A stretch of DNA of 46,580 bases, taken from NCBI GenBank assembly GCA_016783445.1, contig JADHWO010000014.1:1-46580 (forward strand), given 5' to 3'. The notes beneath the pieces are model-generated. The model had not been told where the DNA came from. It saw nothing but the letters and a program-made list of their open reading frames with translations, and searched no databases. Source of the DNA: Candidatus Aminicenantota bacterium (GTDB lineage: Bacteria; Acidobacteriota; Aminicenantia; Aminicenantales; Aminicenantaceae). Below are positions 6,371-46,580 of the stretch, piece after piece. The position numbers were made by a program, and so were the translations under genes. Position 1 is the stretch's first letter. Every line of letters starts with the position of its first letter.

Positions 6371-6492
6371 GGAAACAAAAAGGGAAACAGGCTAATTTTT
6401 CTTGATTGAAGGGGCTTAATTCATATGTAAGGGCTTGATTCATCAAGTCCATAAAATGTTTTTGAGAACGAGGTGCAGCAATCAAACAATTT
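6364..6492. repeat. Extragenic repeat patch (three repeat types)
   Basis: Contains a degenerate GGGACAGG-type end (AAAAAGGGAAACAGGCTAAT), a GGGCTTGATTCATCAAGTCC palindrome near 6430-6450, and a segment near 6456-6486 that matches the repeat at 8136-8167 (TTTTTG-GAACGA-GTGC-GCA). It lies between the RHH gene's stop and the NTF2-like gene's promoter. No gene is seen here. Confidence 0.55.
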
Positions 6493-16997: not shown

Positions 16998-17130
16998 AAA
17001 AAAAGGGGGCAGGCGTATTTATCTTTATTGAAGGGTTTTGGTTCATCAGTAGGATTTGATTAATCAAATCCACCCTTTTTTTAGGATTAAGAGGTACAAC
17101 CTCCACAAAAAGTTGCCTGTCCCTTTTTTT
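16998..17130. repeat. Paired GGGACAGG-type repeat ends around GATTTGATTAATCAAATCC palindrome
   Basis: The left end AAAAAAGGGGGCAGGCG and the right end TTGCCTGTCCCTTTTTTT are inverted. A GGATTTGATTAATCAAATCC palindrome lies between them near 17053-17072. It sits just after the orphan gene's stop and near the GTPase stop on the other strand, so it may terminate both transcripts. Confidence 0.6.
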
Positions 17131-24561: not shown

Positions 24562-24710
24562 AAAAGGGGACAGGTTACTTTATTCAGGCTGCTTTTTTGT
24601 AGGGGTTTGATTTATCAAACCCACCATTTTTTTAAGTTATTGGAATTGAATCATTCTCTAAGAGACGGGCTTAATTCATCTGTAGGAAAAAGTTGCCTAT
24701 CCCTTTTTTT
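24562..24710. repeat. Paired GGGGACAGG/CCTATCCC ends around GGGTTTGATTTATCAAACCC
   Basis: AAAAGGGGACAGGTTACTT at the left and AAGTTGCCTATCCCTTTTTTT at the right are inverted. The palindrome GGGTTTGATTTATCAAACCC lies between them at about 24605-24624. The right end abuts the rpoD stop codon (24720-24722), where a terminator would be expected. Confidence 0.6.
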
Positions 24711-28129: not shown

Positions 28130-28166
28130 GGGTATTCGTTTAAAGGATGTAGAATGACTACAAGTA

Positions 28167-28195
28167 AATATAGGGGGGAGATACTCAATTGTCAA
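28167..28195 (-). promoter_or_regulatory. Predicted strong promoter of dnaG-rpoD
   Basis: Minus strand TTGACA (28190-28195), a 17-bp spacer and TATATT (28167-28172). The 5' leader would be about 30 nt. Confidence 0.7.
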
Positions 28196-28271
28196 GCGTC
28201 TAAGTGGTTAAAAATTAAAGTTTTACAAATTATACGTTAAGTGAAGGAAAAAGAGTAAAAAAGAGACGGTT

Positions 28272-28542
28272 AATAAAAAAGGGGACAGGTTTACTTACTC
28301 AATAATTCGGTAACACTTTTATAATGTCATAACGAGAAGCGCAGAAGATTGCCACGCTACGCTCGCAACAGGCTATGCAATCTCATATAGTGAAATGAAG
28401 TCATAATATAAATAAGAATAGCATCTTATCTTATGAGATTGCCACGCTCCCTTCGGTCGCTCGCAATGACTTTTATATCTTCTATATCATTACAGAAAGT
28501 GTTACCTAATCCCTAAGGATAAAATTAGCCTGTCCTTTTTTT
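28272..28542. repeat. Nested repeat island between larB and dnaG
   Basis: The outer layer is AAAAAAGGGGACAGGTTTAC (28275-28294) with AGCCTGTCCTTTTTTT (28528-28542). The middle layer is the inverted pair GGTAACACTTTT (28309-28320) and AAAGTGTTACC (28496-28506). The inner layer is two AGATTGCCACGCT-CGCTCGCAA copies at about 28347-28372 and 28435-28471. The outer right end runs into the larB stop codon, so it may also serve as larB's terminator. Confidence 0.65.
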
Positions 28543-29284: not shown

Positions 29285-29362
29285 CAGGCTGATTCTATCA
29301 AATATCTCGAGATAAAGCTATAGTAACCAACCTGGAAAGACAAAAAGAGAATGGCCTGCGTT

Positions 29363-29568
29363 TTATTAATTATAGGAGCTTGATTTATCTGTAGCGGCTT
29401 GATTCATCAAATCTATCTGATTCATCTGTAGGGGTTTGATTCATCAAACCCACAATTGATTAAAATAAATGATTATAAATACTGGGGATTATCCCCATTT
29501 TCTAAGGTGGATTTGATTCATCCAATCCCTACAGTTCCAGATAAAGCAGCCTGTATCCTTTTTTTTCT
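29363..29568. repeat. Tandem GATTCATC palindromes with CCTGTATCC end
   Basis: Four related units: GAGCTTGATTTATCTGTAG, GGCTTGATTCATCAAATC, GGGTTTGATTCATCAAACCC (about 29432-29451) and GGATTTGATTCATCCAATCC (about 29509-29528). A GCAGCCTGTATCCTTTTTTTT end (29547-29567) follows. It lies in the 396-bp gap between the divergent genes larB and lpxC, and no gene is seen there. Confidence 0.55.
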
Positions 29569-29571
29569 CAT

Positions 29572-29601
29572 TTGCAGGCGGGGAGAGTTTTAAGTTATAC
29601 T
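29572..29601 (+). promoter_or_regulatory. Predicted promoter of lpxC
   Basis: TTGCAG (29572-29577), an 18-bp spacer and TATACT (29596-29601), about 80 nt before the ATG at 29681. Confidence 0.45.
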
Positions 29602-29680
29602 GGTTAGAACCATAAAGAGGGATTTTTTGTTGAAAATCTAAAGGTTTATCCTCTAAAAAGGTTGTTGTGTTTAGCTGAAA

Positions 29681-30517: not shown

Positions 30518-30607
30518 CATCATTTTTTGACCTTTTTTCTCTTGTCAAAGCAGTTCTCCTGAGATAGAATGGGAAAATCAAAAAAATATTAAGTTTAAGG
30601 AAAATTA

Positions 30608-31123
30608 ATGGTTACAAAAAGTAAAGAGAAGGTAAAAAAAGATGACTACGAAAAAGCGCTTTCAGCTTATGACTTGGCTATGAAAGCCTATCACAAAGGT
30701 GAATACGAAAAAACATCTGAATTACTGAAAGCTTTTTTAGACAAGTTTTCTTCAGAAAAAGAACTTGCTGACCGTGCTCGAATTTATCTCGAAATATGTG
30801 GAGCACTACAAAAAAAGGAAAAAGTTCAATTAAAAACATTCAATGATTATTATGAGTACAGCATTTTCAAAATAAATCAAGGAGATTATGAGGAAGCCCT
30901 CAACTTGTTAGAAAAAGCCCAGGAGATGAAGCCCAAGGAGGGCAAAATATCCTATTTGATAGCCAATACCTATTGTTTGATGGGACAGGGTGAGTCTTGT
31001 TTAGAACATCTGAAGAAGGCTATTAAGCTTGATAAATTTTTCGGGATATTGGCTCAGAATGAAGCGGATTTTGAACCTCTTTGGGAGGATAAAAAATTTA
31101 AGCTGATAACCAGAATGGTATGA
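30608..31123 (+). CDS. Small TPR-repeat protein
   Basis: 171 residues with no signal peptide. Helical repeats include ALSAYDLAMKAYHKGEYEKT (about 18-37), YEYSIFKINQGDYEEALNLL (about 81-100) and KISYLIANTYCLMGQGESCL (about 115-134), each with the TPR Gly/Ala/Tyr pattern. It is a protein-interaction scaffold with no catalytic residues seen. Its stop overlaps the glmU start by 4 nt (ATGA), so the two are translationally coupled. A role in envelope precursor synthesis is plausible from position only. Confidence 0.82.
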   Translation: MVTKSKEKVKKDDYEKALSAYDLAMKAYHKGEYEKTSELLKAFLDKFSSEKELADRARIYLEICGALQKKEKVQLKTFNDYYEYSIFKINQGDYEEALNLLEKAQEMKPKEGKISYLIANTYCLMGQGESCLEHLKKAIKLDKFFGILAQNEADFEPLWEDKKFKLITRMV

Positions 31124-34325: not shown

Positions 34326-34327
34326 AA

Positions 34328-34422
34328 AAGTAAAAAAAGGGGACAGATGAATCAAGCCCCTACAGATGAATAAATCCCTTTCTGATTAACCAAGCTCCTA
34401 TATTCAAGGATGAATACCTTTT
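34328..34422. repeat. GGGGACAG repeat with ATGAATCAAGCCCC units at glmS / receptor junction
   Basis: AAAAAAAGGGGACAGATGAA is followed by ATCAAGCCCCTACAGATGAA and a degenerate mirror end ATACCTTTTTTA. It fills the 97 bp between two convergent stop codons. Confidence 0.5.
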
Positions 34423-37239
34423 TTACCACTTGATTCTAGCCATCACACGTGCCTGGCGGGGCTGCTGCCTTCCCCAGACCCCCCCGAAAATTGAGATATC
34501 TTCCTTGACATAAGATACAGGTCTCTGAGTGTTGAGAAGGTTAAAAATGTCAATCCGGAGAGTCAGAGCCAAACTTTGGAGAAGGTGTAATTTACCCAGT
34601 CGAAACTCTTTTTCTAAACCCAGGTCCAGGTAACAAAGCGAAGGGCTTTCCCTTGTGCCCCTTCCTTCCGGAAAGGAATAGTATCCGCCGAAGAAAGGAA
34701 CGTAACCTAATTTTTCCCAATAATATCCGGATATCCATTCTAGCGCCATAGAAAAGGTCAAGCCATAAGGGGCAAGAAACACGGAGTTCATCTTAATAAT
34801 GTGGTCAATGGAGTAGGGGAGTTTTCCATACCAGCCTTCATCTCCGATTCCTCTTCCGCCCAGGCCGCCCAGGGCCCAATCCACATAGTTTTTTGTGTCT
34901 TCGAATTCAGGAAGGTCAGGGACATAAAGATGGTTTCCGAAAAGTCCGATATAATTTGTGCTCCCTTCTTCCTGAGCCCAGGACCCTGTTTCGCTCTGTC
35001 CGGGATTGGTTCCTTTGGCTGAAGAGTGGCAGTAGGAGGCATTGAGGAAAAAATTGGACCCGATTTTTCCATTAACCTCTATTTCAATCCCCTGATAATT
35101 CCTTCTTTTGAGCTCAAAGTTGTCATAAACGAATTTATATCCTGCTGTTATGTCAAACTCAAAAAGCACTTCGAGCAGCTTTTCTGCTTTCGAACGGACA
35201 TAACGCGCCTTTATCGCCCAGTTTTGTCCCAATTTACGGTCAAACTCAATGAGGTACCGCGTGAGAAAATTCGGTTTTAATCCCTCGGCAATTTCAAAGG
35301 TTTGGCTTTTCTGTTCATTTTCAAACAGCCAGTTTGAAACATTGCGAAGCTCAGTCTCTGATGGATTTGAAGGGCCCTGCCATCTATAGGTGCGGAACGT
35401 CAAGCCAGCTCCAGAATTCAGCAGGCCTAGAGGCATAGTTGTGATTAAATCGGAAAATCTTCCCCAGCCGAACTTTAAAATGTTCTTTCCATCACCTAGT
35501 AAATCGACAGCCAGAGAAAAGCGAGGTGAAAGAAAATCAGTTATACCCCATGACCAGAGCTTCTCCTTATTGTTTTCACGGCAAAGCTGTGTCTGACTGC
35601 GAAAACCCGCCATAAAAGTGAATCTGTTCAGAGTGATTTTATCCTTGAAATAAAGCCCGATTCCACGTGAAGAGTTAATAAAGTTGAACTCCCCGTATTC
35701 GTAGAAAAAAGTTGGTGTTCCTGCTCCGCCCCTCCAGGTGTCAAAATAGTATTTTGTTCCGGCATCAAAATCATTGTTGGCAAATAGGTCTTCATCTTTT
35801 CCGCTGAAATCAACAGCAAATTCAGAAGAGAAAGCGTAATATTCAAGGCCCAAATTGAGCTCATGACGGCCAAAGGTTTCTGTTTCCACGTGTTTTGTGA
35901 GTTTGATATTAAAGTCCAGCCTTTTCTGGTCATCTGTAACATCTCCGTAGGAGTTATTGATGCTCCGGGCTAAATCTTCGATATAGTACTGGGCAGGGCC
36001 GAGGTCTTTATCGACTGGTTCTATAAAAGAGTCTCTCTTGATCTGTCCCAGTCCAGCCTCAATAAAAGTTGAAGAATTGAGAATTCCCTTGTAGTTTATC
36101 CTGAAGATGAAGTCTGAAAAATACTTTTCTTCAAATAGGTCCGGAATTCCTGTTCCACCTTTAAGTCTAAAAGATTTATTAAACATCGATGTAAGAGATA
36201 TGCTGTGATTGATGTTTAAAGCGTAAGTGAGTTTTGCAAAAAGGTTGTTGCTGGGTGTGGTCCTCTTGCCCTCAGGAACAAAAAGATAATCCAAAAAACC
36301 ATCCTTAGTTTGTTCTGTATCCGTAAAGAAATTATCCGAGAAAAAAAACCACAGCTTGTCTTTGATCAGGGGGCCGCCGAGATTAAAATACCAGTTGTAG
36401 TTGGAAAAATAGTCTGGTTCGCTTACGACAGAGAGCTGATCTTCTCGAGAAGATTGAAGCTTTTTATCCGTGAGGACAAGGGAGAATTCGCCTGTAAAAT
36501 CGTTACTTCCGGTTTTTGTGACCATATTGATGATGCCGCCATAGGCAGAACCGAATTCTGGGCTGAAAGGGTCGGAGATAATCTGTATTTCGTCAATTGA
36601 ATCAAAATTTAAGCGCATTCCTGCATTTCTTAATCGCACTCCAGTAATTGAGAGGCCGTCAACGATCCAGTTGGTTCCTTCTTCTCCTTCACCTCTAAAA
36701 CTTGGCAGCCCTTCAGTTGCTGTGCCACGGCGGGTGTTAACTCTTACGCCCGTAACGCCAGGAGTTACCTTGACCGCATCCACCACTGTTCGGTTCTGTG
36801 CAGGAAGTCTTTCCAGGTCTTTGCTGCTGAGATGGAAACTTGTATCGGTTGAAGTTTTATCGATAAGAGGGGCTTCTGCTGTGACCACAATTTCCTTTTT
36901 TATCTCTGATAGTTTCATGGTGACATTCAAATCGGTCACCTGACCAAGGCGTACAATAACATTTTCCTGAACGCGTGTGCTAAATCCGGGAATCTTAAAA
37001 GTCAGAGTGTAATTTCCAACTGGAAGAAGTGGAAAATGAAAATTGCCAGTTTTTGAAGAGAGGATGGTCCGCTGGCCCTGAAGGCTTGTACTTTTTGCTG
37101 TTATTTCAACTCCGGGGAGACCTTCGCCGCTTTCATCCCGGACCTTTCCCTTGATTTCACCTGTTTCTATGGCCAGGGCATGGATGTTTATGATAAGGAG
37201 GGTTCCTAAAAATAATATAATTATCTTCTGCCTGACCAT
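34423..37239 (-). CDS. TonB-dependent receptor with N-terminal carboxypeptidase-regulatory-like domain
   Basis: Outer-membrane active transporter, 938 residues. A signal peptide (about 1-24) is followed by a CarboxypepD_reg-like Ig fold (about 27-110; GEIKGKVRDESGEGLPGVEI and GNYTLTFKIPGFST). The plug domain (about 118-240) has EIVVTAEAP near the TonB-box position, then NWIVDGLSI and GSAYGGIINMVTKTGSNDF. The beta-barrel runs to a C-terminal aromatic residue (ARIKW), as outer-membrane assembly expects. This architecture is typical of Acidobacteriota-like Oar/SusC-type receptors. No SusD partner or transport operon is adjacent, so the ligand is unknown. It is convergent with glmS and monocistronic. 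Confidence 0.93.
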   Translation of the reverse strand: MVRQKIIILFLGTLLIINIHALAIETGEIKGKVRDESGEGLPGVEITAKSTSLQGQRTILSSKTGNFHFPLLPVGNYTLTFKIPGFSTRVQENVIVRLGQVTDLNVTMKLSEIKKEIVVTAEAPLIDKTSTDTSFHLSSKDLERLPAQNRTVVDAVKVTPGVTGVRVNTRRGTATEGLPSFRGEGEEGTNWIVDGLSITGVRLRNAGMRLNFDSIDEIQIISDPFSPEFGSAYGGIINMVTKTGSNDFTGEFSLVLTDKKLQSSREDQLSVVSEPDYFSNYNWYFNLGGPLIKDKLWFFFSDNFFTDTEQTKDGFLDYLFVPEGKRTTPSNNLFAKLTYALNINHSISLTSMFNKSFRLKGGTGIPDLFEEKYFSDFIFRINYKGILNSSTFIEAGLGQIKRDSFIEPVDKDLGPAQYYIEDLARSINNSYGDVTDDQKRLDFNIKLTKHVETETFGRHELNLGLEYYAFSSEFAVDFSGKDEDLFANNDFDAGTKYYFDTWRGGAGTPTFFYEYGEFNFINSSRGIGLYFKDKITLNRFTFMAGFRSQTQLCRENNKEKLWSWGITDFLSPRFSLAVDLLGDGKNILKFGWGRFSDLITTMPLGLLNSGAGLTFRTYRWQGPSNPSETELRNVSNWLFENEQKSQTFEIAEGLKPNFLTRYLIEFDRKLGQNWAIKARYVRSKAEKLLEVLFEFDITAGYKFVYDNFELKRRNYQGIEIEVNGKIGSNFFLNASYCHSSAKGTNPGQSETGSWAQEEGSTNYIGLFGNHLYVPDLPEFEDTKNYVDWALGGLGGRGIGDEGWYGKLPYSIDHIIKMNSVFLAPYGLTFSMALEWISGYYWEKLGYVPFFGGYYSFPEGRGTRESPSLCYLDLGLEKEFRLGKLHLLQSLALTLRIDIFNLLNTQRPVSYVKEDISIFGGVWGRQQPRQARVMARIKW

Positions 37240-37477
37240 ATTAATTTTTAGCCTTTCGAAAAGGGAACACGTTTATTTTTCTATAGGGGGATGTCTTTTA
37301 TTTAAAGCTAGTATGCAGATTCTGTTAGTTTTTATTATCCCTTTATTCCCCTTATTTGAGTGTCCATTTAAGCTTTATTATAAGTTTTTTGATTAGTAAA
37401 AAAACATAATTAATCTAATATTATACAAATTTTAAGTCAACAGGTAGAACTAGGCCTGCTAAATTTGTATGTCTATG

Positions 37478-37595
37478 GAGTTAAGCCTTATCCTGAGGAA
37501 GTATGCGTAATCAAAGGGGAGAATGATTTCTCTCCCTAAAGGCAAAACATGACCATGTTGAGGCAGATTTTACAGGTCTGATCCCAAGGCCTCGT
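37478..37595. repeat. Possible degenerate copy of the GGGGTCGCGTCTCAACATTT family (copy D)
   Basis: Contains AAGCCTTATCCTGAGGAAG, a GGCAAAACATGACC segment and GGTCTGATCCCAAGG, in an arrangement like 7018-7145. Identity is clearly lower than between copies A and C. The surrounding 37240-37715 stretch has no gene; its right part carries the tRNA-Leu promoter. Confidence 0.35.
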
Positions 37596-37643
37596 TTCTG
37601 CGGCTAGCTTGGCTCGTGAATAATCCAGGGCAATTATATAATG

Positions 37644-37672
37644 TTGAAAAAAAGAGCTAAATCATCTATATT
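37644..37672 (+). promoter_or_regulatory. Predicted promoter of tRNA-Leu
   Basis: TTGAAA (37644-37649), a 17-bp spacer and TATATT (37667-37672), about 43 bp before the tRNA. Confidence 0.55.
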
Positions 37673-37715
37673 TTGGAATTGTAAAAGCTGCCTAGTTTTA
37701 TCCAGGGAAGATATT

Positions 37716-37801
37716 GCCGGGGTGGCGGAATTGGTAGACGCAAGGGACTTAAAATCCCTCGTTGGTTATTCAACGTGCCGGTTCGAGTCCGGCCCTCGGC
37801 A
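37716..37801 (+). tRNA. tRNA-Leu (TAA)
   Basis: 86 nt, class II with a long variable arm. Acceptor GCCGGGG/CCTCGGC (one G-T pair), D arm GGCGGAATTGGTAGACGC, anticodon stem AGGGA/TCCCT with loop CTTAAAA (anticodon TAA), T stem with GGTTCGAGTCC, discriminator A. CCA is not encoded. Confidence 0.97.
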
Positions 37802-37922
37802 TGCCTGATTCCATTACTGTATGCCATAACTGTCTTTTTTTTCTGAGGGCTCTGTTAATAAACGGATAGATACTAATTTTGGAAGTTTTAAAAGTCTGCT
37901 TGCGAGGTAAAACATTTCTGGG

Positions 37923-37951
37923 TTGACAAATAAATTTACTCTGTGTTAAAA
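37923..37951 (+). promoter_or_regulatory. Possible promoter of the 86-residue membrane protein gene
   Basis: A perfect TTGACA (37923-37928) with a 17-bp spacer to TTAAAA (37946-37951). The -10 is weak. Confidence 0.4.
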
Positions 37952-38019
37952 GCTATAAGGGAATAATAAATCAATATTAAGCATATGAGGAAATATCTTT
38001 TTATAAGGGAGGAAGATAA

Positions 38020-38280
38020 ATGGTAATTTGGATTCTTGTGTTGGCCGTTTTGACAATTTTTTCTTATTTATCAGACATGGGGTTATTTCAGTTTTTGCAA
38101 AATTTTAGGGTGCCTTTCCTAAATGCATCTATCATGAGCCTTTTAATTCTTCTTTGTACTGCAGCAATGCTTGTGAGAATTCTAACAAAAGTTAGATCTA
38201 AAGAAAAAGAAACTCTTGGAACAAAGGTAGGCCAACTTTATAAAGAACTGCAGGCTCTTAAAGAAAAACAGGAGAGTTAA
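38020..38280 (+). CDS. Small two-helix membrane protein with coiled-coil tail
   Basis: 86 residues. TM helices lie at about 2-18 and 37-55, and the last 25 residues are charged helix (KEKETLGTKVGQLYKELQAL). GGGAGG 9 nt before the ATG supports it as a real gene. No family is recognised. Its TAA stop abuts the stop of the convergent PilZ gene with no bases between them (TTAATTAA across 38277-38284). Confidence 0.72.
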   Translation: MVIWILVLAVLTIFSYLSDMGLFQFLQNFRVPFLNASIMSLLILLCTAAMLVRILTKVRSKEKETLGTKVGQLYKELQALKEKQES

Positions 38281-38682
38281 TTAACCTGATTTTTCTTTTT
38301 TCTCTTTCTTCTCATCCTCAATTTTTACCCATACAGGCATAATCCAATTGAGGATCTCTTCTTTTACATTTTCATCCATCTTGTTTATTTTTAATCCAAC
38401 TTCCAATTTATTATCTTTAAACTTATTCCAGGTGACTTCTCCTGCTAAAGTAGTTGACAAATTTTTTTCTGGAACAAAAATTTTTACTTCCACTTTTGAG
38501 CCTGGGCGGATATTCATAAAATTTATAGCTAGCTTTAGTCCCTCCTGTGAGAAGTTGTGAACGATTGCTCTTTCAGATAGACTATCTCTGCCTTCTGATT
38601 TTACAAATTCTGCAGGAAGCAGACAATCAGACCGGACGTATTTTCTTTTTTCCTTTTCCTCTTTTTTACTCAAAGTGCTCAT
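38281..38682 (-). CDS. PilZ domain protein
   Basis: 133 residues from the ATG at 38682; the longer in-frame reading begins with TTG at 38751, overlapping the divergent gene's promoter, and is rejected. A Lys/Glu-rich start leads into a PilZ barrel: RKYVR gives the first Arg pair of the c-di-GMP motif and NFSQEGLKL the (D/N)xSxxG motif, followed by PGSKVEVKIFVPE and GEVTWNKF. It should bind cyclic di-GMP. No diguanylate cyclase is present in the window; an HD-GYP protein lies 3 kb to the right. Confidence 0.85.
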   Translation of the reverse strand: MSTLSKKEEKEKRKYVRSDCLLPAEFVKSEGRDSLSERAIVHNFSQEGLKLAINFMNIRPGSKVEVKIFVPEKNLSTTLAGEVTWNKFKDNKLEVGLKINKMDENVKEEILNWIMPVWVKIEDEKKEKKEKSG

Positions 38683-38740
38683 AAGTGTAACATGGAAAAA
38701 TGATATTTTCAATTGAAGTTTTCCGTCAAATAAAAAACGC

Positions 38741-38769
38741 TTGACATTCAAATAATGCAGCCATACTAT
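38741..38769 (+). promoter_or_regulatory. Predicted promoter of the 64-residue membrane protein gene
   Basis: TTGACA (38741-38746), a 17-bp spacer and TACTAT (38764-38769). +1 falls near 38776, and the GTG start is at 38805 with AGGAGG 8 nt before it. Confidence 0.65.
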
Positions 38770-38804
38770 TCAAAGTAACTTAAGGAAAAGAGGAGGTAAA
38801 CTCA

Positions 38805-38999
38805 GTGAACAAAACATTAAATTTACTATGTGATGTGTTTATTGCTGTAGCAGCTCTAAGCTTGGTTCTGGGGATTATTACTCGAATTGTTGAAAAAGTG
38901 ATTATCTTTGGAGTGACTTCACAAGCTTTTCTTCAATTTTCCCAGACTCTTCTTTTATTTGCTATTGCCCTAGGAATAAGAGGTTTATTGAAGAAGTAG
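38805..38999 (+). CDS. 64-residue two-helix membrane protein
   Basis: GTG start with a strong AGGAGG and a near-consensus promoter. Two hydrophobic helices (about 6-26 and 41-60) are joined by a short ITRIVEKVIIFGVTSQ segment, and the C-terminus is basic (RGLLKK). No family is recognised. Expression signals are stronger than for most genes here, so it is probably real and well expressed. Confidence 0.72.
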   Translation: MNKTLNLLCDVFIAVAALSLVLGIITRIVEKVIIFGVTSQAFLQFSQTLLLFAIALGIRGLLKK

Positions 39000-39157
39000 A
39001 AAGCTTTCTGAAGAAGAATTTTCTGTCTTTAGGAATTCGCGGGTACAATCGGTTCCGCAAACATCACAAATACGTACTTTTGTAGTACTTGTTCATATAT
39101 CATTAAAATATTTCCGCCTTGAACTCCGATTATTAAAACTTGCTCTCAGCTTAATGG

Positions 39158-40693
39158 CTAAAAATTTACAAAAATAGGATTTGATACTATTTTTCTTCCC
39201 TTTTTGTCTTTCACATCCAAACGATAAAATATTTTTTTTCCTGGCACTCTAAATTTGTCTCTAAAATCTATTTTTAAAGGCGTTTCGCCATAGAAGATTT
39301 TTAACAGTTCACCGTTTCGAATAAGTCTTACAGTTAAGGAATTTTCTTTCTCTGAACCTGGGGTGAAAATACTTATGTTTATCCTTAAAGAGCCATTAGA
39401 AGATATCTCCTCCCCCATGAGGGCTTTTTGGGAAGTATCTGGATCAGAAATAGAGAACTCTTCAAGAACCAGTCTTGGAGAGTTGACGTCTCCTCTATAG
39501 GAATACATTCTTCCTTTTTTTAAAGCCTCTAATATATGCTTTTTGGTTTTATTCTTGACAAGAAAAATTGTGGGATAATTTCCTAATTTATCTCCAGCTG
39601 AACCTTCTTTGTGGAAATCAGCAGCAGAGATCCCCCAAACTGGTAAAACTCTCTGGCCCGAGCAGTACTCCAGTAGGACCTTATCCCAAATGTTTCCCGG
39701 CTCTGTAACAGTTATAGTGTCTCCATATAATGTTGCAAAGCCTGTGTAGTTTTTAGATTCTTTTAGCACTTGAGGATAAGACGGAGTATCTCGAAAAATA
39801 AACTCTAATTTACTCTGGCCTGACTTAGTCTCAGGGTGATTCCAGAAAACCATTCCTCCCCGAGAATTTACATAATCAATCAATAACTGGTATGGTGAGA
39901 TACCCTGATATCCGTGATATTGATCATAAGGAGAGCTTCTAAAAGGAAAATTATTGATAAAAAGAAGCAGACTGAAGAGACAAATGGTTATTCCAAAAAA
40001 TCTAATAAGTCTCTTTCTTTTTAACAAAAATAAGCCGACTATAAGAGGAATAAGTGGTAGAAAAAAACCAACTGAAATAAATGAAGAAATATATCTTGTA
40101 GAATAACCGTTATTTAATATCGGTAAATTTTTGTAGTCTTCTGGCTTCTCGAAGCCAAAAATTAAAAGATGTCTTTCCCAGTCACAAACGGTCAGGTTTT
40201 TTTTAAAATAGCTTCCTCTCCAGTAATAAAATGGAGTTGACTCTGCTCCAGGAATTAAGACCATCTCGGGATACTTTTTTGAGGCTGATTGGATCATGTT
40301 CAGGTAATTTTCTGGTCCTCCCTTATTAATGGAAGGCGTTTCAACTCTTTTTTTCAATATATGTTGAAACGGGCGTATACCGTATTCCAGGACTTTACGG
40401 TCATGGTCAGTGATAAAAAGGACCGTAAAACCCCTCTTTTTAGCCAGATTGATGAGATAGTCTAGTGTGTGGGAACCGTCGCTGAAATTTGTGCGGAGGT
40501 CAAGTAATCCTGGCACCTGAATGTATTCATCAGCCAGTCCGTGGTTATAAGTACATACTGCCGTGCTGATAAGAACTAAAATCAGAAGAAATTTTCTGTT
40601 TTTTTTCTTTTTTAATTTAGTGACCCGGTGACTTGTTATCTTGAAGTCGAGTTTTGCTATTCCCATCTTTTGGTTAAAATTAATATTATTCAT
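39158..40693 (-). CDS. Membrane-linked PHP-like phosphoesterase lacking the HxH metal motif
   Basis: 511 residues. TM/signal anchor at about 34-50, then a PHP-like fold: DLRTNFSDG (65-73) followed by the helix LDYLINLAKKRGFTVLFI and TDHD (95-98), Glu151 in GAEST, His286 in FWNHPE, and a late SAADFH. Two extra TM helices (about 203-224 and 230-247) split the fold. In ordinary PHP proteins the first motif is DLHxHTxxSDG; here HxH is replaced by a single Arg, so the first metal site is missing. The C-terminal 120 residues are beta-rich. The start is ATG with no clear Shine-Dalgarno. Confidence 0.78.
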   Translation of the reverse strand: MNNINFNQKMGIAKLDFKITSHRVTKLKKKKNRKFLLILVLISTAVCTYNHGLADEYIQVPGLLDLRTNFSDGSHTLDYLINLAKKRGFTVLFITDHDRKVLEYGIRPFQHILKKRVETPSINKGGPENYLNMIQSASKKYPEMVLIPGAESTPFYYWRGSYFKKNLTVCDWERHLLIFGFEKPEDYKNLPILNNGYSTRYISSFISVGFFLPLIPLIVGLFLLKRKRLIRFFGITICLFSLLLFINNFPFRSSPYDQYHGYQGISPYQLLIDYVNSRGGMVFWNHPETKSGQSKLEFIFRDTPSYPQVLKESKNYTGFATLYGDTITVTEPGNIWDKVLLEYCSGQRVLPVWGISAADFHKEGSAGDKLGNYPTIFLVKNKTKKHILEALKKGRMYSYRGDVNSPRLVLEEFSISDPDTSQKALMGEEISSNGSLRINISIFTPGSEKENSLTVRLIRNGELLKIFYGETPLKIDFRDKFRVPGKKIFYRLDVKDKKGRKIVSNPIFVNF

Positions 40694-40703
40694 GTTTTAA
40701 GTC

Positions 40704-40769
40704 AATAGAACCGTCCCCATTTTACTTTTATTTTACTTTTATGAGAAAAATAGAACCGTCCCCATTTTA
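40704..40769 (+). repeat. Two direct AATAGAACCGTCCCCATTTT repeats
   Basis: The 20-bp sequence occurs at 40704-40723 and again near 40749-40768, about 45 bp apart and in the same direction, in the gap between divergent genes. A weaker copy follows gyrA at 23529. The pattern resembles REP heads associated with RAYT (Y1 transposase) proteins; no such transposase is in the window. Confidence 0.65.
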
Positions 40770-40788
40770 AATAATCCAGGATAATAGT

Positions 40789-40818
40789 TTGACATGGGTA
40801 ATTTATTTATTCTATATT
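40789..40818 (+). promoter_or_regulatory. Predicted promoter of the ExeA-like/HD-GYP operon
   Basis: TTGACA (40789-40794), an 18-bp spacer and TATATT (40813-40818), about 50 nt before the ATG at 40868. Confidence 0.6.
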
Positions 40819-40867
40819 TAGAGCGAGAAAGAGTGCGCATTGAATGACGCTATTTCCATAGAAAAAA

Positions 40868-41671
40868 ATGTATGAAGCATACTGGGGATTAAAAGAAAAG
40901 CCCTTTGAGAACACACCGGACCCGCGCTTTATATATTCTTCGCATGATCATTTAGAAGCTGCCACTAGATTGACTTATGCAGTTGAGGAACGCAAAGGAG
41001 CGGCTTTACTGACCGGTGATTATGGCTGTGGAAAAACAGTCATAAGCAGGCTGCTTTTTGAGGTTTTGCCCCAGGATAAATATGAAATAGCGCTGGTTAC
41101 CAATCCTTTACTCAGTCCGAATGATCTTTTAAGGGAAATATGTATCCAAATGGGCTTAAAGAGCCCTCCAAGCCCACCTAAGACACAATTGCTGTCAGAT
41201 CTCAATGAGCACCTATACGAGAACATGAAAAATCAGAAAGATACTGTGATTATTATCGATGAAGCGCAAGCGATTCAAGATATGATGACATTTGAAGAGT
41301 TAAGACTACTTTTAAATTTTCAGTTAAATAATAGATTTCTGTTAACGTTAATACTCATAGGGCAGCCTGAATTGCGAGAAATGATAAATGAATTTAAACA
41401 ATTAAAACAGAGATTAGCTATAAGATATCACCTGAATCCCCTTAATAAGGAAGATACTAAAAAGTACATCCACCATAGATTAAAAGTAGCTGGGATCAAC
41501 AAAAATATTTTTTCGGACAATGTCCATAATTTAATATGGGAAAACACCGAAGGAGTTCCACGGGTGATAAATACTCTCTGTGATATGTGCTTGTTGCTGG
41601 GATTTACAAAAGCACTTAAGGAAATAAACGAAGATATAGTAAAAAAAGCCATTCATGGCTTGGAACATTAA
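40868..41671 (+). CDS. ExeA/GspA-like AAA ATPase
   Basis: 267 residues. The opening MYEAYWGLKEKPFENTPDPR is the signature of the ExeA/GspA and exosortase-locus (PEP-CTERM type) ATPases. Walker A is GDYGCGKT (50-57), Walker B IIIDEAQ (Asp131/Glu132), and a sensor-like GQPELRE is present. The C-terminal winged-helix-like part ends with GVPRVINTLCD. It lacks the C-terminal peptidoglycan-binding domain of full ExeA (usual length about 500+). Members often sit at polysaccharide export loci. The HD-GYP gene follows after 6 bp, so they are co-transcribed. Confidence 0.9.
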   Translation: MYEAYWGLKEKPFENTPDPRFIYSSHDHLEAATRLTYAVEERKGAALLTGDYGCGKTVISRLLFEVLPQDKYEIALVTNPLLSPNDLLREICIQMGLKSPPSPPKTQLLSDLNEHLYENMKNQKDTVIIIDEAQAIQDMMTFEELRLLLNFQLNNRFLLTLILIGQPELREMINEFKQLKQRLAIRYHLNPLNKEDTKKYIHHRLKVAGINKNIFSDNVHNLIWENTEGVPRVINTLCDMCLLLGFTKALKEINEDIVKKAIHGLEH

Positions 41672-41677
41672 TTAACT

Positions 41678-42682
41678 ATGGTTAAATTATCTGAAATCAT
41701 CAGGAAAACTGGTGAAGAAAAACCTCAGGATGAGCCAGGTCTCATCTCAGAAGCTGCAAAGAAAAAAGATGATGTAGACATCTTGGGTGAAACAAAAAAG
41801 ATCTACGAAGATGCAATTATTCATTTAAGGCCAATATTAAATGAAGTTGTGAGGGGGAAAACAATTCAAGGGGGGGAAATTGTAAGCATTGCAGAAGTAA
41901 TATTAGAACAGATACAGGTTGAAAATGATACATTGTTATCTTTAATTAACATTTTTGGTTCTCTTGGAGAGAAAGAGGATTATATTTGTTCGCACTCAAT
42001 AAATGTCTCGATTTTAGCCACAAATCTAGGTTTGGCTCTTGGATATGATAAAAGTAAGCTTGTTGATATCTGTGTTTCTTCTTTATTGCATGATATTGGC
42101 ATGTTGAAAATTCCCATAGAAATAAGAAATAAGCCTTCAAAGCTGGAAAAAGAAGAGTTTGAAGTGATCAAAAAGCATCCTGCTTTAGGCTTGGACCTTT
42201 TAAATAATATAAGGGATTTGCCGCTATCAGCCCCTGAAATTGTCTATCAACACCATGAGAGACTAGATGGAACAGGATATCCAGAAGGGAAAAGAGGTGA
42301 TGAAATTGCAGATTCTGCCAAAATAGTTGCCGTAACCGAAGTATATGAAGCTATAACACATCCCAGATTTTATGGTAAGGAAAAGCAAATTCCCTATGAT
42401 GGCGTAAAGGCTATTGTCCAGAAGGCAGGGCGTTCTTTTGAGCCCAAATTAGTAAAAGTTTTCTTAAATTTTATCACTCCATATCCTCTGGGAAGTTATG
42501 TATTATTAAACAACAACGAGATCGGCAGGATTGTAGGCATCAATAAAAATCTTCCCCTGCGTCCGGTTGTGGATATCTTTTTTGACGCTGAGGGGAAACC
42601 TCCTAAGAAGTCAAAAAGGGTAAATTTAGCCGGTTCGCCTGTATTGCATATTGAAAAACCTGTGGATGATAGTCGATTATAA
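41678..42682 (+). CDS. HD-GYP domain phosphodiesterase-like protein
   Basis: 334 residues. A helical N-terminal region (about 1-95) is followed by HD-GYP (about 96-265): His106, His138-Asp139 (SLLHDIGML), His167, His192-His193 and RLDGTGYPEG. The family degrades cyclic di-GMP. Three usually Asp positions are Glu here: AVTEVYEAI (Glu221 for the metal-binding Asp of ADVYDAL, and Glu224), and SFEP for FDP. The C-terminal 65 residues form a small beta domain (LGSYVLLNNNEIGRIVG), as in several HD-GYP proteins. It is in an operon with the ExeA-like ATPase and could tune surface polysaccharide output (inference). Confidence 0.9.
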   Translation: MVKLSEIIRKTGEEKPQDEPGLISEAAKKKDDVDILGETKKIYEDAIIHLRPILNEVVRGKTIQGGEIVSIAEVILEQIQVENDTLLSLINIFGSLGEKEDYICSHSINVSILATNLGLALGYDKSKLVDICVSSLLHDIGMLKIPIEIRNKPSKLEKEEFEVIKKHPALGLDLLNNIRDLPLSAPEIVYQHHERLDGTGYPEGKRGDEIADSAKIVAVTEVYEAITHPRFYGKEKQIPYDGVKAIVQKAGRSFEPKLVKVFLNFITPYPLGSYVLLNNNEIGRIVGINKNLPLRPVVDIFFDAEGKPPKKSKRVNLAGSPVLHIEKPVDDSRL

Positions 42683-42759
42683 ATACACCTGTAAATCTGA
42701 GAAGAGCCAGTTTTATTGAGGCGGAGTTTCTACTTCTTAAGAGGCAGTTCCAGGTGTAT
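42683..42759. other. Inverted repeat ATACACCTG / CAGGTGTAT after the HD-GYP gene
   Basis: A perfect 9-bp inverted repeat, 59 bp apart, starts 1 bp after the HD-GYP stop and ends 89 bp before wbqC. It could close a structured RNA, but no U-run follows it, so it is not an ordinary terminator. Confidence 0.35.
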
Positions 42760-42848
42760 GACTACATTTTTAATCAAACAAGGGGTCGAAGCATAAAATA
42801 AGGTTGTTTGATATTCGGGACTTTACCGAGAGAAATAAGGTTTAATAC

Positions 42849-43532
42849 ATGATTGTTGCCATTCATCAACCTCAGTATTTACCCTGGTTAGGATATTTCG
42901 ATAAAATTGACCGAAGTGATGTATTTATATTTCTGGATAATGTACAATTTAAAAAAAACGAATGGCAGAATCGAAATAAGATAAAGACATCTAAGGGCTG
43001 GCAGTGGCTTTCTGTTCCGGTAATTCATAGATTCACTCAGAAAATATGTGAAGTTGAAATCAACAACACTGTACAATGGGGAAGAAAACATCTAAATGCC
43101 TTGGTCACAAATTATTCAAAGGCACTTTTTTTTAAGGAATATATTGGTTTTTTTGAGCAGGTTTATGCTCAGGATTGGAATAATTTAGTCGACATTAATA
43201 TTCATATAATAAAGTACTTAACTAAGGTTTTGGGCATTTTAGATAAAAAGTTAGTTTTAGCGTCAGAATTAGATACAAGAGAAGAGCCTACTGAGAGGTT
43301 AATTGATATATGCAGGCAGGAAAGAGGAGATGTTTACCTTTCAGGCAAAGATGGGGCAAAATATATGAATACAGAGAAATTTAAAGAGGAAGGCATTAAA
43401 ATTATCTTTCAGGACTATAAGCACCCCCAGTACACTCAGCTTTATGGGAGTTTTGAACCATATTTATCAATTATAGATTTATTATTTAATTGTGGTCCAA
43501 AGAGCCTTTCAGTTTTAAGAAAAGGAGAATGA
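42849..43532 (+). CDS. WbqC-like family protein
   Basis: 227 residues. The N-terminal IVAIHQPQYLPWLGYFDKI, with DVFIFLDNVQFKKNEWQNRN, is the WbqC signature. Members occur in O-antigen and capsule clusters and are linked to modification of amino sugars, but the reaction is not established for most. It heads a tight run with the PIG-L deacetylase (1 bp gap), the DegT aminotransferase (8-nt overlap) and the polyprenyl-P transferase (15 bp). This strongly suggests one pathway for a modified amino-sugar residue. Confidence 0.92.
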   Translation: MIVAIHQPQYLPWLGYFDKIDRSDVFIFLDNVQFKKNEWQNRNKIKTSKGWQWLSVPVIHRFTQKICEVEINNTVQWGRKHLNALVTNYSKALFFKEYIGFFEQVYAQDWNNLVDINIHIIKYLTKVLGILDKKLVLASELDTREEPTERLIDICRQERGDVYLSGKDGAKYMNTEKFKEEGIKIIFQDYKHPQYTQLYGSFEPYLSIIDLLFNCGPKSLSVLRKGE

Positions 43533-43533
43533 A

Positions 43534-44148
43534 TTGAATATTTTAGCTTTAGGAGCCCATCCAGACGATATTGAATATGGTTGTGGAGGAACTTTTCTTA
43601 AATTTGCCAGAAGAGGAGAAAATATATATTTTATGGTCTTAACAAAAGGTGAGTTCGGTGGAGACTCAGAAGTGAGAGTGAAAGAACAGGAAGAAGCAAA
43701 AAAATTACTGGGTGTGAAAAAGATCTTCTGGGGGGGATACGTGGATACTGAGCTGCCTAACGAAAGAATAATAATCACCCGTATTGATGAAGTCATTGAA
43801 GAAGTCAAGCCGGATGAAGTGTATGTCAACTACATTGATGATATCCATCAGGATCACCGCACTCTGGCCGAGTGTACTTTAGCCGCCACCCGATATGTCA
43901 AGAGAGTATTTTTCTATGAGGATTACACTTCCAATAATTTTGAGCCGGATGTTTTTGTGGATATTGAAGATGTATTAGAAGAAAAACAAAAATTGATTCA
44001 AGTCTATTCTTCTCAGGTATCCAAGGCCTATCCAACTAAATTGGATATGGTCGAAAGTGTCAAGGCTACTGCGAATTTCAGGGGTTTTCAAGGAAAAATT
44101 AAATACGCTGAGGGGTTTAAGGCATTCAGATTTTTACGCGATGTGTGA
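43534..44148 (+). CDS. PIG-L/LmbE-family deacetylase
   Basis: 204 residues from TTG (43534), with AAGGAG 6 nt upstream. Zinc motif AHPDDIE (His9, Asp11, Asp12) comes near the N-terminus, and IDDIHQDHRTL holds His105/His108. Family members remove N-acetyl groups from GlcNAc-type sugars or related conjugates. Within this locus it probably deacetylates a sugar nucleotide or lipid-linked amino sugar. The 3' end overlaps the aminotransferase start by 8 nt. Confidence 0.93.
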   Translation: MNILALGAHPDDIEYGCGGTFLKFARRGENIYFMVLTKGEFGGDSEVRVKEQEEAKKLLGVKKIFWGGYVDTELPNERIIITRIDEVIEEVKPDEVYVNYIDDIHQDHRTLAECTLAATRYVKRVFFYEDYTSNNFEPDVFVDIEDVLEEKQKLIQVYSSQVSKAYPTKLDMVESVKATANFRGFQGKIKYAEGFKAFRFLRDV

Positions 44149-45190
44149 TGAAATAATTCCCCACTCCCGTCCTTTGATTTCTGATTCAGATATCGAAGGT
44201 GTAGTCTCTGTGATGAAATCCGGTCAAATAGCCCAGGGGCCCAGAGTTGCCGAATTTGAGGAAAAATTAGCTGGTTTTATCGGCAAAAAAAAGGCTGTAG
44301 CAGTAAGCTCAGGCTCTGCAGCTCTCCATCTCGCGTTGTTAGTTTTAGGCGTAAAAGAAGAAGATGAAGTTATAATCCCTTCCTTTGTTTGTTCGGCTGT
44401 TCTTAATGCCGTGAATTTTTGCGGAGCAACCCCTGTTATTGTTGATATAGAACCCGAGACTTTTAATATTTCCGTAAATGCTGTTCAGAGAGCTAAAACC
44501 GGGAAAACTAAGGCAGTTATTGTACCGCATATGTTCGGCTGTCCTGCAGACATGGAGAGATTATCTGAGCTGGAAATTCCAGTAATTGAAGATTGTGCTC
44601 AGGCTGTTGGCGCGGATTTTAAAGGGCAAAAGGCGGGGAGCTTCGGTCTTCTCTCTGTGTTTTCTTTTTATGCCACAAAAGTGCTAGCTGCTGCAGAAGG
44701 AGGTATGGTTTTATGCGATTCTGAAGACCTCGTATCCAGGATAAAAGACCTTAGAGAATATGACAATAGAGACGATTATATTTTACGTTATAACTACAAG
44801 ATGACTGATATTCAGGCATCCCTTGGAATAAGTCAGCTTTCTTCTATAGAAACATTCATCGATAAGCGGAGGGAGATTGCTACACGGTATTTCCAGGAGT
44901 TTAAAAATTGTAATTTCTCGTTGCCCGTCTGGAAAGAAGGGAGAGAGCATATTTATTACCGGTTTGTTATAAAAACTGAAGATAATTCTTCCGGCTATAT
45001 TAAAAGATTACAAAAAAATAAAGTTATGTGCCAGCATCCTGTCTATAAGCCTCTGCATGTCTATTTAAATCTGCCTGGTTTTCCTCATACAAGTGAAGCA
45101 TGGCAAAAAACAATATCTATCCCTCTTTATCCTTCATTGAAAGAGAAAGAGATAGAAAAAATTATTGCCGTAGTCAAAGAAATTTTTTAG
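44141..45190 (+). CDS. DegT/DnrJ/EryC1-family sugar aminotransferase
   Basis: PLP-dependent sugar-nucleotide aminotransferase, 349 residues from the ATG at 44141; an upstream in-frame start at 44057 lies wholly inside the deacetylase gene and is rejected. The opening IIPHSRPLISDSDIEGVVSV is typical. SSGSAALHLAL binds cofactor phosphate, VIEDCAQAVGA holds the pyridine-nitrogen Asp, and SFYATKVLAAAEGG holds the Schiff-base Lys180. NYKMTDIQASLGISQL is the conserved downstream motif. It provides an aminodeoxy sugar for the surface glycan; the exact sugar cannot be read. Confidence 0.94.
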   Translation: MCDEIIPHSRPLISDSDIEGVVSVMKSGQIAQGPRVAEFEEKLAGFIGKKKAVAVSSGSAALHLALLVLGVKEEDEVIIPSFVCSAVLNAVNFCGATPVIVDIEPETFNISVNAVQRAKTGKTKAVIVPHMFGCPADMERLSELEIPVIEDCAQAVGADFKGQKAGSFGLLSVFSFYATKVLAAAEGGMVLCDSEDLVSRIKDLREYDNRDDYILRYNYKMTDIQASLGISQLSSIETFIDKRREIATRYFQEFKNCNFSLPVWKEGREHIYYRFVIKTEDNSSGYIKRLQKNKVMCQHPVYKPLHVYLNLPGFPHTSEAWQKTISIPLYPSLKEKEIEKIIAVVKEIF

Positions 45191-45205
45191 TATAAGGTTT
45201 AAAAT

Positions 45206-46279
45206 ATGAGAACTTTTTTTGAGTATATTCATTCTTTTCTCTCCAGTGTACCATTCAGGTGGGCATTCCTCCTGTTTTTTTCTTTTTTCCTGACTTTTAT
45301 CTTGACTCTGGTGATGAGGCGTATTGCCAGAAAACTTAAAATATTGGACCATCCTGAGGAGAGAAAAATTCATGAGAAGCCAATACCTCTTCTGGGAGGG
45401 CTGGCTATTTATATTTCCTATGTTGTGACTGTCTTTTTAAATTTCAGTTTCTCGATTGAGTTAAAGGGAATTATTCTTGGCGGTACAATAATACTCCTCA
45501 TAGGATTAATTGATGATAAGTGGGGCTTACCGGCAAAGTGGAAATTGTTGGGGCAAGTGGTTGCTTCAAGTGTATTAATACTCCATGGAATCAAATTAAG
45601 CTTTTTGCCGGGTACATGGTGGGGTTATGGAGGAGAGGTAATTCTGACCATAATCTGGATAGTCGGAATAACAAACGCAGTTAATTTTTTCGATGGCATG
45701 GACGGCCTGGCTGCAGGCTTAATAACAATTTGTTCTTTATCATTTTTTATTGTGGCTCAGATTACAGGCCAATCCTATCTGGGATACTTGACTATCGCCC
45801 TGGCAGGAAGCTGCCTGGCATTCTTGAAGTTTAATTTTAAACCAGCATCCATATTTTTAGGAGATGCGGGGAGTACTTTTTTAGGATTTACTTTGGCGGG
45901 AATAAGTGTAATGGGAGGTTGGGCTGAAAATAATCCCAGGGTTGCCATGGGTTTGCCAATTTTAGTATTAAGTATCTTTATATTTGATATGGTCTATATA
46001 ACTGTTGCCAGGGTATTGAGCGGGACGGTAAAAAGTATTCGAGAATGGATCGAGTATACAGGGAAAGACCATTTGCATCATCGTTTAGTTGATCATGGAT
46101 TTGATGAAATTCAAACAGTTTTATTGATTTATTTGATAGCAGCGTGTCTGGGAATAGGCGGCATTAATCTTAGAGCTTCAAGCGATTTAAGGATTTATTT
46201 TCAACTGATTCAAGCGCTTTTTATATTTATAATCATTGTTATTCTTATGCTTTCTGGACGCAAAGTTTTAAAAAAATAA
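45206..46279 (+). CDS. WecA/MraY-type polyprenyl-phosphate sugar-1-phosphate transferase
   Basis: Integral membrane enzyme that starts glycan assembly by moving a HexNAc-1-phosphate from UDP to undecaprenyl phosphate. 357 residues with about ten TM helices. Catalytic loops: HPEERKIHEKPIPLLGG, LIDDKWGLPAKWK (DD pair), NAVNFFDGMDGLAAG, FLGDAGSTFLGF and KDHLHHRLVDHG (the HxHH-type loop of WecA-like members). The last of these and the lack of peptidoglycan genes favour WecA/TagO over MraY. It ends the plus-strand run of the locus. Confidence 0.93.
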   Translation: MRTFFEYIHSFLSSVPFRWAFLLFFSFFLTFILTLVMRRIARKLKILDHPEERKIHEKPIPLLGGLAIYISYVVTVFLNFSFSIELKGIILGGTIILLIGLIDDKWGLPAKWKLLGQVVASSVLILHGIKLSFLPGTWWGYGGEVILTIIWIVGITNAVNFFDGMDGLAAGLITICSLSFFIVAQITGQSYLGYLTIALAGSCLAFLKFNFKPASIFLGDAGSTFLGFTLAGISVMGGWAENNPRVAMGLPILVLSIFIFDMVYITVARVLSGTVKSIREWIEYTGKDHLHHRLVDHGFDEIQTVLLIYLIAACLGIGGINLRASSDLRIYFQLIQALFIFIIIVILMLSGRKVLKK

Positions 46280-46304
46280 AAAAAAGCAAGACATTTTTTT
46301 CAGG

Positions 46305-46340
46305 TAGAGATTGCCACGTCACTCCGTTCCTTGCAAAGAC
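46305..46340. repeat. AGATTGCCACGTCACTCCGT repeat copy
   Basis: AGATTGCCACGTCACTCCGT followed by TCCTTGCAAAGAC, the same family as 8094-8240 and 28347-28471, in reverse orientation to 8094. Confidence 0.5.
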
Positions 46341-46352
46341 ATAAGAACATAA

Positions 46353-46393
46353 AAAAAGGGACAGGCTACTTTTAAAGTAGCCTGTCCCTTTTT
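46353..46393. terminator. Bidirectional terminator-like perfect palindrome of the GGGACAGG family
   Basis: Two 20-nt arms (46353-46372 and 46374-46393) are exact reverse complements around a single T. The stem GGGACAGGCTAC/GTAGCCTGTCCC is flanked by A5 and T5 runs. It lies between two convergent stop codons (46279 and 46405), so it should stop transcripts from both sides. It is also the cleanest copy of the GGGACAGG repeat. Confidence 0.8.
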
Positions 46394-46404
46394 ATCTGCT
46401 GGGC

Positions 46405-46580
46405 TTAATTCTTTTGAGTTAGCAATTCCTCATATAAATTTGCAATTTTTTCGACCATTTTTTCCTTACTGAAATTTTTTACCATCTCTTTTCCAACCTG
46501 TCCCATTTTCTCTCTTTGTTCTTTATTCTTTATGAGGATCTGGATATATTTTGCCAGTTTTTCTGAATTTCTTACAGGGA
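46405..46580 (-). CDS. C-terminal end of a family 4-like glycosyltransferase (cut by window edge)
   Basis: Hand translation of the minus strand gives an open frame entering from the right edge, ending at TAA (46405-46407), with 57 visible residues. PVRNSEKLAKYIQILIKNKE is followed by QREKMGQVGKEMV and KEKMVEKIANLYEELL. This is the usual tail of GT-B glycosyltransferases: the helix after the nucleotide-sugar site, then RxxMGxxGR-like and a final EKMVE-IxxLYEELL helix. The catalytic part is outside. It converges on the WecA-type gene and belongs to the same surface-glycan locus. Confidence 0.75.
   Translation of the reverse strand, partial: PVRNSEKLAKYIQILIKNKEQREKMGQVGKEMVKNFSKEKMVEKIANLYEELLTQKN

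Follow-up and report, generated by a model that had tools for sequence, protein, structure and literature searches.

Elements in which a Y1/HUH gene lies between long terminal inverted repeats carrying GGGGWSAS have been described as TIRYTs or TIRtrons by Di Nocera, De Gregorio and Rocco (2013, PMC3733652). In the passages of that paper that concern them, TIRYT repeats form moderately abundant dispersed families, many of which occur in dimers or clusters, and REPtrons are said to be possibly lost by deletion. TnpAY1 subclass 2.1 of Quentin et al. (2018, PMC6006769) is equated with the TIRYTs, with GGGG[AT][CG]A[CG] as the reported end motif; as far as the passages on this subclass go, no REP-like sequences were found beside it. 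Here we compare these systems with a palindrome and its relatives in a window of 46,580 nucleotides, which is contig C127 of a 2.89-Mb draft genome (153 contigs, 90% complete) of a Candidatus Aminicenantota bacterium.

An earlier note on this DNA had described a perfect palindrome with 20-bp arms between two convergent genes, which we confirmed. The palindrome, at 46353-46393, reads AAAAAGGGACAGGCTACTTT-T-AAAGTAGCCTGTCCCTTTTT, with 20-bp arms, no mismatches and a 1-nt centre; the longest palindrome arms in 20 order-1 Markov sequences of the length of the window were 9-12 bp. The flanking genes are listed in Table 1 together with the other copies. Judged by eye, the product of the right-hand gene looks like the C-terminus of a glycosyltransferase. 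Rfam at gathering scores detected nothing in the window but three tRNAs.

Table 1. Repeat ends in the window and the genes flanking the palindrome.
Feature	Coordinates	Strand	Remark
Compact inverted pair of GGGACAGG ends	46353..46393	.	terminator-like on both strands
Left convergent gene, Glycos_transf_4 family	45206..46279	+	domain match
Right convergent gene, 57-aa open frame running off the contig	46405..46578	-	
Left end AAAAGGGGGCAGGCGTA, spaced pair between convergent genes	17001..17017	+	
Right end AAAAAGGGACAGGCAAC of the 16998-17130 pair	17112..17128	-	
Left end AAAAGGGGACAGGTTAC of the 24562-24710 pair	24562..24578	+	
Right end AAAAAGGGATAGGCAAC of the 24562-24710 pair	24692..24708	-	
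Left end AAAAGGGGACAGGTTTA of the 28272-28542 pair	28277..28293	+	
Right end AAAAAAGGACAGGCTAA of the 28272-28542 pair	28525..28541	-	
Solitary left end, partnerless	34335..34351	+	
Decayed solitary end	6379..6395	+	absent from the earlier note
Decayed solitary end in divergent intergenic region	29546..29562	-	absent from the earlier note

Four looser pairs of the same ends had been proposed as well, each enclosing 3' ends of genes. Three of them, at 16998-17130, 24562-24710 and 28272-28542, are real, with inverted ends that are 1-4 positions off AAAAGGGGACAGGCTAC, but at 34328-34422 there is no CCTGTCCC on the right side and only the left end is present. Moreover, the 24562-24710 pair is not placed around two 3' ends; its neighbours are the 3' end of a gene on one side and the start of a same-strand tRNA on the other, and it contains a GTAGGGG repeat at 24598-24622. 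The spacer of the 28272-28542 pair contains, by eye, CATTGCGAG-type repeats. Pieces of a repeat family, CATTGCGAGG...GTGGCAATCTC, are present at 46305-46344 and at about 28320-28480. At 7867-8093, the window also contains 26-nt arms that are 96% complementary, 175 nt apart and flanked on both sides by CATTGCG; this has the look of a miniature element that entered a CATTGCGAG-type repeat and left a 7-bp duplication.

Could the copies have accumulated by chance, as G-rich and A/T-rich strings in this DNA? Two of the seven GGGACAGG occurrences in the window (30982-30989 and 46497-46504) sit inside genes and were taken as chance, and the 11-mer AAAGGGACAGG, rejected as too weak a search pattern, gave 9 matches against 5 in the control. 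However, 0.79 occurrences of GGGACAGG were expected in the window and none of 100 shuffles reached seven, and the longer type A 17-mer AAAAGGGGACAGGCTAC, with up to three mismatches, gave 60 matches in the own genome against 16 for the reversed pattern. Three end types were distinguished in this genome: A (AAAAGGGGACAGGCTACTTTTT), B (AAAATGGGGACAGGCCCCATTTT) and C (AAAAGGGGACAGTCCCCTTTT). The sequence GGGGACAGGCTACTTTT (up to one mismatch) is present in 22 of 60 genomes, including the own genome with eight matches, and reaches 115 matches in the relative G004, 112 in G022 and 87 in G012, whereas the control gave two across all 60 genomes. Chance accumulation is refuted by these controls. Outside the host family, GGGGACAGGCTACTTTT was found only in G053 and G054, with one match each.

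At least 119 stretches in the species collection contain the exact 21-mer AAAGGGGACAGGCTACTTTTT; of those listed, 75 belong to 15 named phyla and the other 44 have no assignment. The carriers listed are mostly MAGs, and the isolates among them include Desulfoscipio geothermicus, Citrifermentans bremense and Geomonas. An inverted partner lies within 400 bp, allowing one mismatch, in 63 of the 119 listed stretches. Among the matches listed in the literature searched, we found no published description of the exact end (GGGGACAGG, GGGGACAGGCTAC).

In other genomes, these ends bracket Y1 transposase genes. In locus L179 (Omnitrophota), the Y1 gene at 150-833 lies between two identical 22-bp type A ends, and in L161, from a deltaproteobacterial MAG, the gene at 3196-3861 is bracketed by near-identical copies of the end. 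A tree was built from 43 transposases of loci L091-L298 that matched our own profile at E 1e-9; proteins with weaker matches (IS200-like ones, the L220 fragment, L281 and L286) and rows whose residues 21-80 duplicate an earlier row were excluded. Eight loci form one clade with support 98/92, namely L178, L161, L179, L206, L279, L099, L283 and L105, and the ends in this clade are GGGG(A/C)CAGG(C/T) or GGGGACAGTCCCC, with an end on one side only in L178 and the locus cut by the contig end in L105. L161, L178, L179 and L206 had been fetched via the 21-mer in the locus, and the other four via Y1_Tnp alone. About 17 of the remaining 35 tree members have GGGGACAC-, GGGGTCAG-, GGGGACGG- or GGGTCGG-type ends, six have other G-rich ends and 12 are without a clear pair; the score of the automatic inverted-repeat search was 12 or less in 13 of the 43 rows. 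L117 is outside the clade and its ends nonetheless begin GGGGACAGG/GGGGACAGT, and the Y1 protein of L155, a locus fetched by the 21-mer, falls outside the clade and is encoded away from the ends.

These transposases resemble those of the TIRYTs and of subclass 2.1. They are RAYT-like, with HUH and a catalytic Tyr (all in other genomes), and HFH, WQ and RY are invariant in all eight clade members. As in the published account of subclass 2.1, there are an NH[YF]H motif, WQ, a Y--NP signature, a length of about 238 aa and a C-terminal extension, the last being visible in the transposase alignment (TIRYTs carry a helix-turn-helix-like domain at the C-terminus); membership is by motifs seen in that alignment and not by the published profiles. 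Y1_Tnp matched all three proteins tested, and one of four proteins tested exceeded the curated cut-off of 80 bits for REP_Tyr_transpos (NF047646), the others scoring 71-80. The bracketing inverted repeats of L179, L161 and L279 fit GGGGWSAS (GGGGACAG), but L099 and, at its paired ends, L283 have GGGGCCAG, which departs from W at position 5. As in TIRYTs, the repeats bracket a gene with GGGGWSAS-type ends and are dispersed as singles and dimers. They differ from the elements of the published account in their discrete 85-89 bp form, in their mosaics with other repeats and in the exact 21-mer found across many phyla. The presence of copies without a detected transposase in the own genome is a further difference, and the 87-115 matches per genome in three relatives may be another.

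The earlier note had proposed a search for a RAYT-type Y1 transposase. The hint was right in kind, since the ends bracket such genes in relatives and in other phyla, but no member of the clade was found in the own genome, where the best match to the clade profile had E 0.4. Since this 90%-complete draft yielded no cognate transposase, the own-genome copies look orphaned, a point that bears on activity here and not on descent. A strong clade member (E 1e-112 or better) was found in only four of the 60 genomes searched (G004, G012, G032 and G035). G022, G006, G023 and G036 have many copies and no strong clade member; because they are drafts, the transposase genes may be missing from them. The one Y1_Tnp match of the own genome, an IS200-like protein on contig C51, was rejected as the cognate, its flanks being CCCCGCAGC-type palindromes.

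Several further Y1-related features were observed. The IS200-like transposase of contig C51 (G000:C51:6904-7263, L010) is flanked by CCCCGCAGCAGAGCTGCGAGG palindromes. A divergent Y1 protein is encoded at G000:C96:31195-31893 (L402), L281 902-1642 and L286 991-1755; it has 58% identity between the own genome and G012, and its gene adjoins what looks by eye like uvrA. Flanking this gene are several GTAGGGG..TTGATTYATCAA repeats in G022 and one in G012; in the own genome this repeat has 119 matches, with one decayed copy only near the divergent Y1 gene. At 18258-18410 of the window lie the arms GGGGTCGCGTCTCAACATTT and AAATGTTGAGTAACGACTCC, of which the left matches the terminal repeat of another TIRYT (L107, G002) and the right is decayed; this end type has 19 matches in own-genome stretches against none for the reversed control. 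A third TIRYT-type end, GGGGACGGTTCTATTT, occurs at window position 40748 and in L241, L243, L245 and L249, with 10 matches in the own stretches against one in the control, and matches the ends of L116 and L297.

The repeats also share features with REPINs, their RAYTs and BIMEs (PMC3116915, PMC2817692): they are short inverted pairs, non-autonomous, intergenic and Y1-linked. It is nevertheless most improbable that they are classical GTAG-tagged REP sequences or REPINs. They are palindromic, and the type A end does contain GTAG when read outwards, but it is missing from types B and C and from many copies of type A (GGCAAC), and no stable hairpin stands at the foot of the GTAG, a single type A end folding at -1.5 kcal/mol. 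In the end types and folds examined, GT[AG]G was not found at a hairpin foot; the repeats have long terminal inverted repeats instead. Furthermore, the own genome has a separate GTAG-type family, TGTAGGGGYTTGATTYATCAARCCC, with 119 matches against none in the control.

The pairs are two-ended elements whose spacer varies and in many cases is occupied by other repeats; a compact form may have been opened, as the earlier note had it, or a long form may have shrunk. The 23 loci examined in G012 yielded 23 inverted pairs of 47-234 bp (two pairs overlap), many with a mosaic spacer composed of CATTGCGAG-type and GTAGGGG-type repeats; the CATTGCGAGG...GTGGCAATCTC repeat is also common inside GGGACAGG pairs of this genome. 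Units of 98, 208 and 84 bp recur in G012 with 95, 91 and 87% identity, compared with 45-54% for the 100-bp flanks on either side. G004 contains 27 inverted pairs in 20 stretches, 15 of which measure 85-89 bp. Among these 15, ten share at least 80% identity with one reference copy, two carry a similar core (72-75%) between GGGGCCAGG ends, and three have a different, GTAGGGG-like core.

G004 was also compared with its congener G022. At 42 match places both flanks were present in the other genome, with the element present in 26 and absent in 16; ten of these places (four present, six absent) are matches of 21-23 nt, of equal length in both genomes and probably due to chance, and after dropping them 22 present and 10 absent remain, some loci being counted from both sides. 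Clean empty sites were found in both directions, including L359 8616-8889 and L381 9805-9972. Because of this presence and absence with clean empty sites, the units come and go, and some are inherited.

We therefore read the repeats, with a probability of about 0.88, as the terminal inverted repeats, single or in short inverted pairs, of miniature non-autonomous elements that would once have been mobilised by a TIRYT-type Y1/HUH tyrosine transposase, a relative of RAYTs encoded between long inverted repeats that start with GGGG. Sequence comparison supports this reading: in other genomes transposases of this kind lie between the ends, end type and transposase clade correspond, entire units reappear with flanks that are unrelated, and a related species lacks some units at the matching site. 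Movement would have proceeded through single-stranded DNA, and the transposase would have been lost from this lineage. The elements would work like miniature inverted-repeat elements with Y1-type ends; that they are still mobile in the own genome is doubtful.

The gene junction around the palindrome could be followed in relatives, with orthologues of the left-hand gene (71-75% identity) in five of them; the junction was read in G012, G004, G005 and G011, and G018 was left out since its contig ends there. A homologue of the right-hand gene is convergent to the left-hand gene in G012, G004 and G011 (58, 64 and 42% identity over 56-57 aa), and in all three the palindrome is missing from this gene pair. 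The junctions of G012 and G004, both copy-rich genomes, have GTAGGGG-type repeats between the genes and no GGGACAGG palindrome. In G011, which had no matches in the 60-genome scan, neither a GTAGGGG repeat nor the palindrome was found in the 260 nt read, and G005 has neither the right-hand gene nor the repeat at that place. Because the same junction in relatives holds other repeats or none, the palindrome is a newcomer specific to this lineage, at a place where different genera have received different repeats.

A bidirectional intrinsic terminator has an A-tract, a GC-rich stem, a small loop and a T-tract that can be read both ways. The palindrome at 46353-46393 has all of these on both strands, with predicted folds of -31.0 and -33.5 kcal/mol and U's at the 3' side of the stem. 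Single units of types B and C, folding at about -11 kcal/mol, are likewise predicted to form a GC-rich hairpin followed by U's, but a single type A end is not. The ends consist of an A-tract, a G-rich arm, a C-rich arm and a T-tract, so the RNA of a compact pair like 46353-46393 would form a hairpin with 3'-side U's on either strand and, on these predictions, can probably stop transcription. Termination at individual copies such as the one at 46353 is plausible.

Whether the family as a whole serves the host in this way is another matter. The earlier note had suggested that the repeats may have been adopted as the host's termination signal; on that reading they would mark gene 3' ends through selection. 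A built-in terminator scan of 28000-46580 detected 19 terminators against 16.9 in shuffles, and because it was non-discriminating in this DNA we used a stricter hairpin-plus-T rule. Under this rule ordinary 3' ends show no excess: among own-genome sites that lack the repeat, a terminator is predicted at 14 of 153 3' ends and at 18 of 190 start-codon sides. Where the repeat is present, a terminator is predicted at 17 of 37 3' ends, as adoption would have it, and at 8 of 37 once the repeat is masked; the start-codon sides with the repeat are also terminator-shaped, in 14 of 28 regions (2 after masking). In G012, the counts are 16 of 158 3' ends and 20 of 179 start-codon sides without the repeat, and 14 of 39 (3 masked) and 16 of 36 (4 masked) with it. 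These predictions indicate that the terminator shape travels with the repeat and not with the gene end.

The positions of the copies relative to genes were counted in 20-21 stretches each from the own genome, G012, G004, G022 and G023, with gene calls from our own script based on ORFs and codon usage. The stretches were chosen for holding copies, which should not favour one orientation class, and elements within 300 bp were merged. Matches inside called genes were dropped (own genome 18/76, G012 18/113, G004 22/111, G022 17/135, G023 7/81), a few of which may be true copies covered by short ORFs that are spurious. Genes in the 119 named loci were called by a simpler longest-ORF rule, which left 84 elements with genes on both sides.

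A total of 203 intergenic elements were obtained in the five genomes: 39 between convergent, 113 between tandem and 51 between divergent genes, where the free intergenic bases would give 26.2, 121.8 and 55.0. Of the 113 tandem elements, 85 are closer to the upstream 3' end, and 65 of 152 elements have a stop codon within 20 nt (34.7 expected). A count of the motif against 3' ends had been proposed as a check; in these stretches it gave both a 3'-side bias and a convergent excess, as adoption predicts, but both are shared with unrelated repeats. GTAGGGG, a unit without a T-tract, has the same side bias (54/65; Fisher p 0.26 against 85/113) and a convergent excess (28 against 16.5 expected), and for CATTGCGAG the side bias is 24/34 and the convergent excess is even larger (24 against 8.9), each counted in the genomes having these repeats. 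Per genome, in the order given above, 6, 11, 6, 11 and 5 convergent elements were observed and 5.8, 4.8, 4.4, 9.9 and 1.3 expected; from these counts, the convergent excess is real in G012 and G023, but shared with other repeats, and is absent from the own genome. Together with the near-expected number between divergent genes, the weak fold of a single type A end and the lack of the palindrome at the same gene pair in three relatives, this leaves adoption as the host's termination signal unsupported, and we consider it very unlikely. Compared with bidirectional intrinsic terminators, the repeats do not appear to be 3'-end-specific genome-wide, and the palindrome is not conserved at the same junction.

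A likely explanation of the placement, compatible with descent from TIRYT-type elements, is that the 3' bias is passive: dispersed repeats of all kinds would be found after stop codons because selection removes insertions near promoters and start codons. The side bias common to GTAGGGG and CATTGCGAG speaks for this, as does the similar placement of GTAG and CGTC repeats, which the relevant passages of PMC3733652 assign to regions that are convergent or unidirectional, with the 3' end often <20 bp away. However, CATTGCGAG is rarely within 20 nt of a stop codon (4/58, about 9.5 expected; GTAGGGG 30/93, 19.2 expected), and in the own genome GGGACAGG is closer to stops (13/34) than the other two families (3/22 and 1/19; pooled 4/41, Fisher p 0.005). 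With all genomes taken together, GGGACAGG and GTAGGGG differ only weakly (p 0.11), and the stop-codon contrast may in part reflect the nesting of other repeats within GGGACAGG pairs.

When the elements are separated by form, excluding five of other arrangement, the convergent share is 9 of 30 for compact pairs (about 3 expected), 20 of 96 for single ends (about 14) and 12 of 64 for wide pairs (about 9). Compact pairs are favoured between convergent genes in these numbers, which is also what adoption would lead one to expect, but their share is not clearly different from that of single and wide forms combined (32/160; Fisher p 0.23), and the enrichment is a hint only. It is unlikely that compact transposon ends are preferentially kept between convergent genes as ready-made bidirectional terminators; if they were, the decay of mobile elements would supply termination sites in these genomes.

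For elements descended from a TIRYT-type transposon, the capacity to terminate would rather be a by-product of end structure, kept where it is harmless, mostly just after stop codons. An anonymous palindrome is now tied to a described but little-studied transposase group, in which end sequence and transposase clade correspond, and an identical 21-bp end is found in many phyla. Strong terminator-like hairpins in such genomes may be the ends of mobile elements, and for this reason care is needed in terminator prediction and in the annotation of gene ends.
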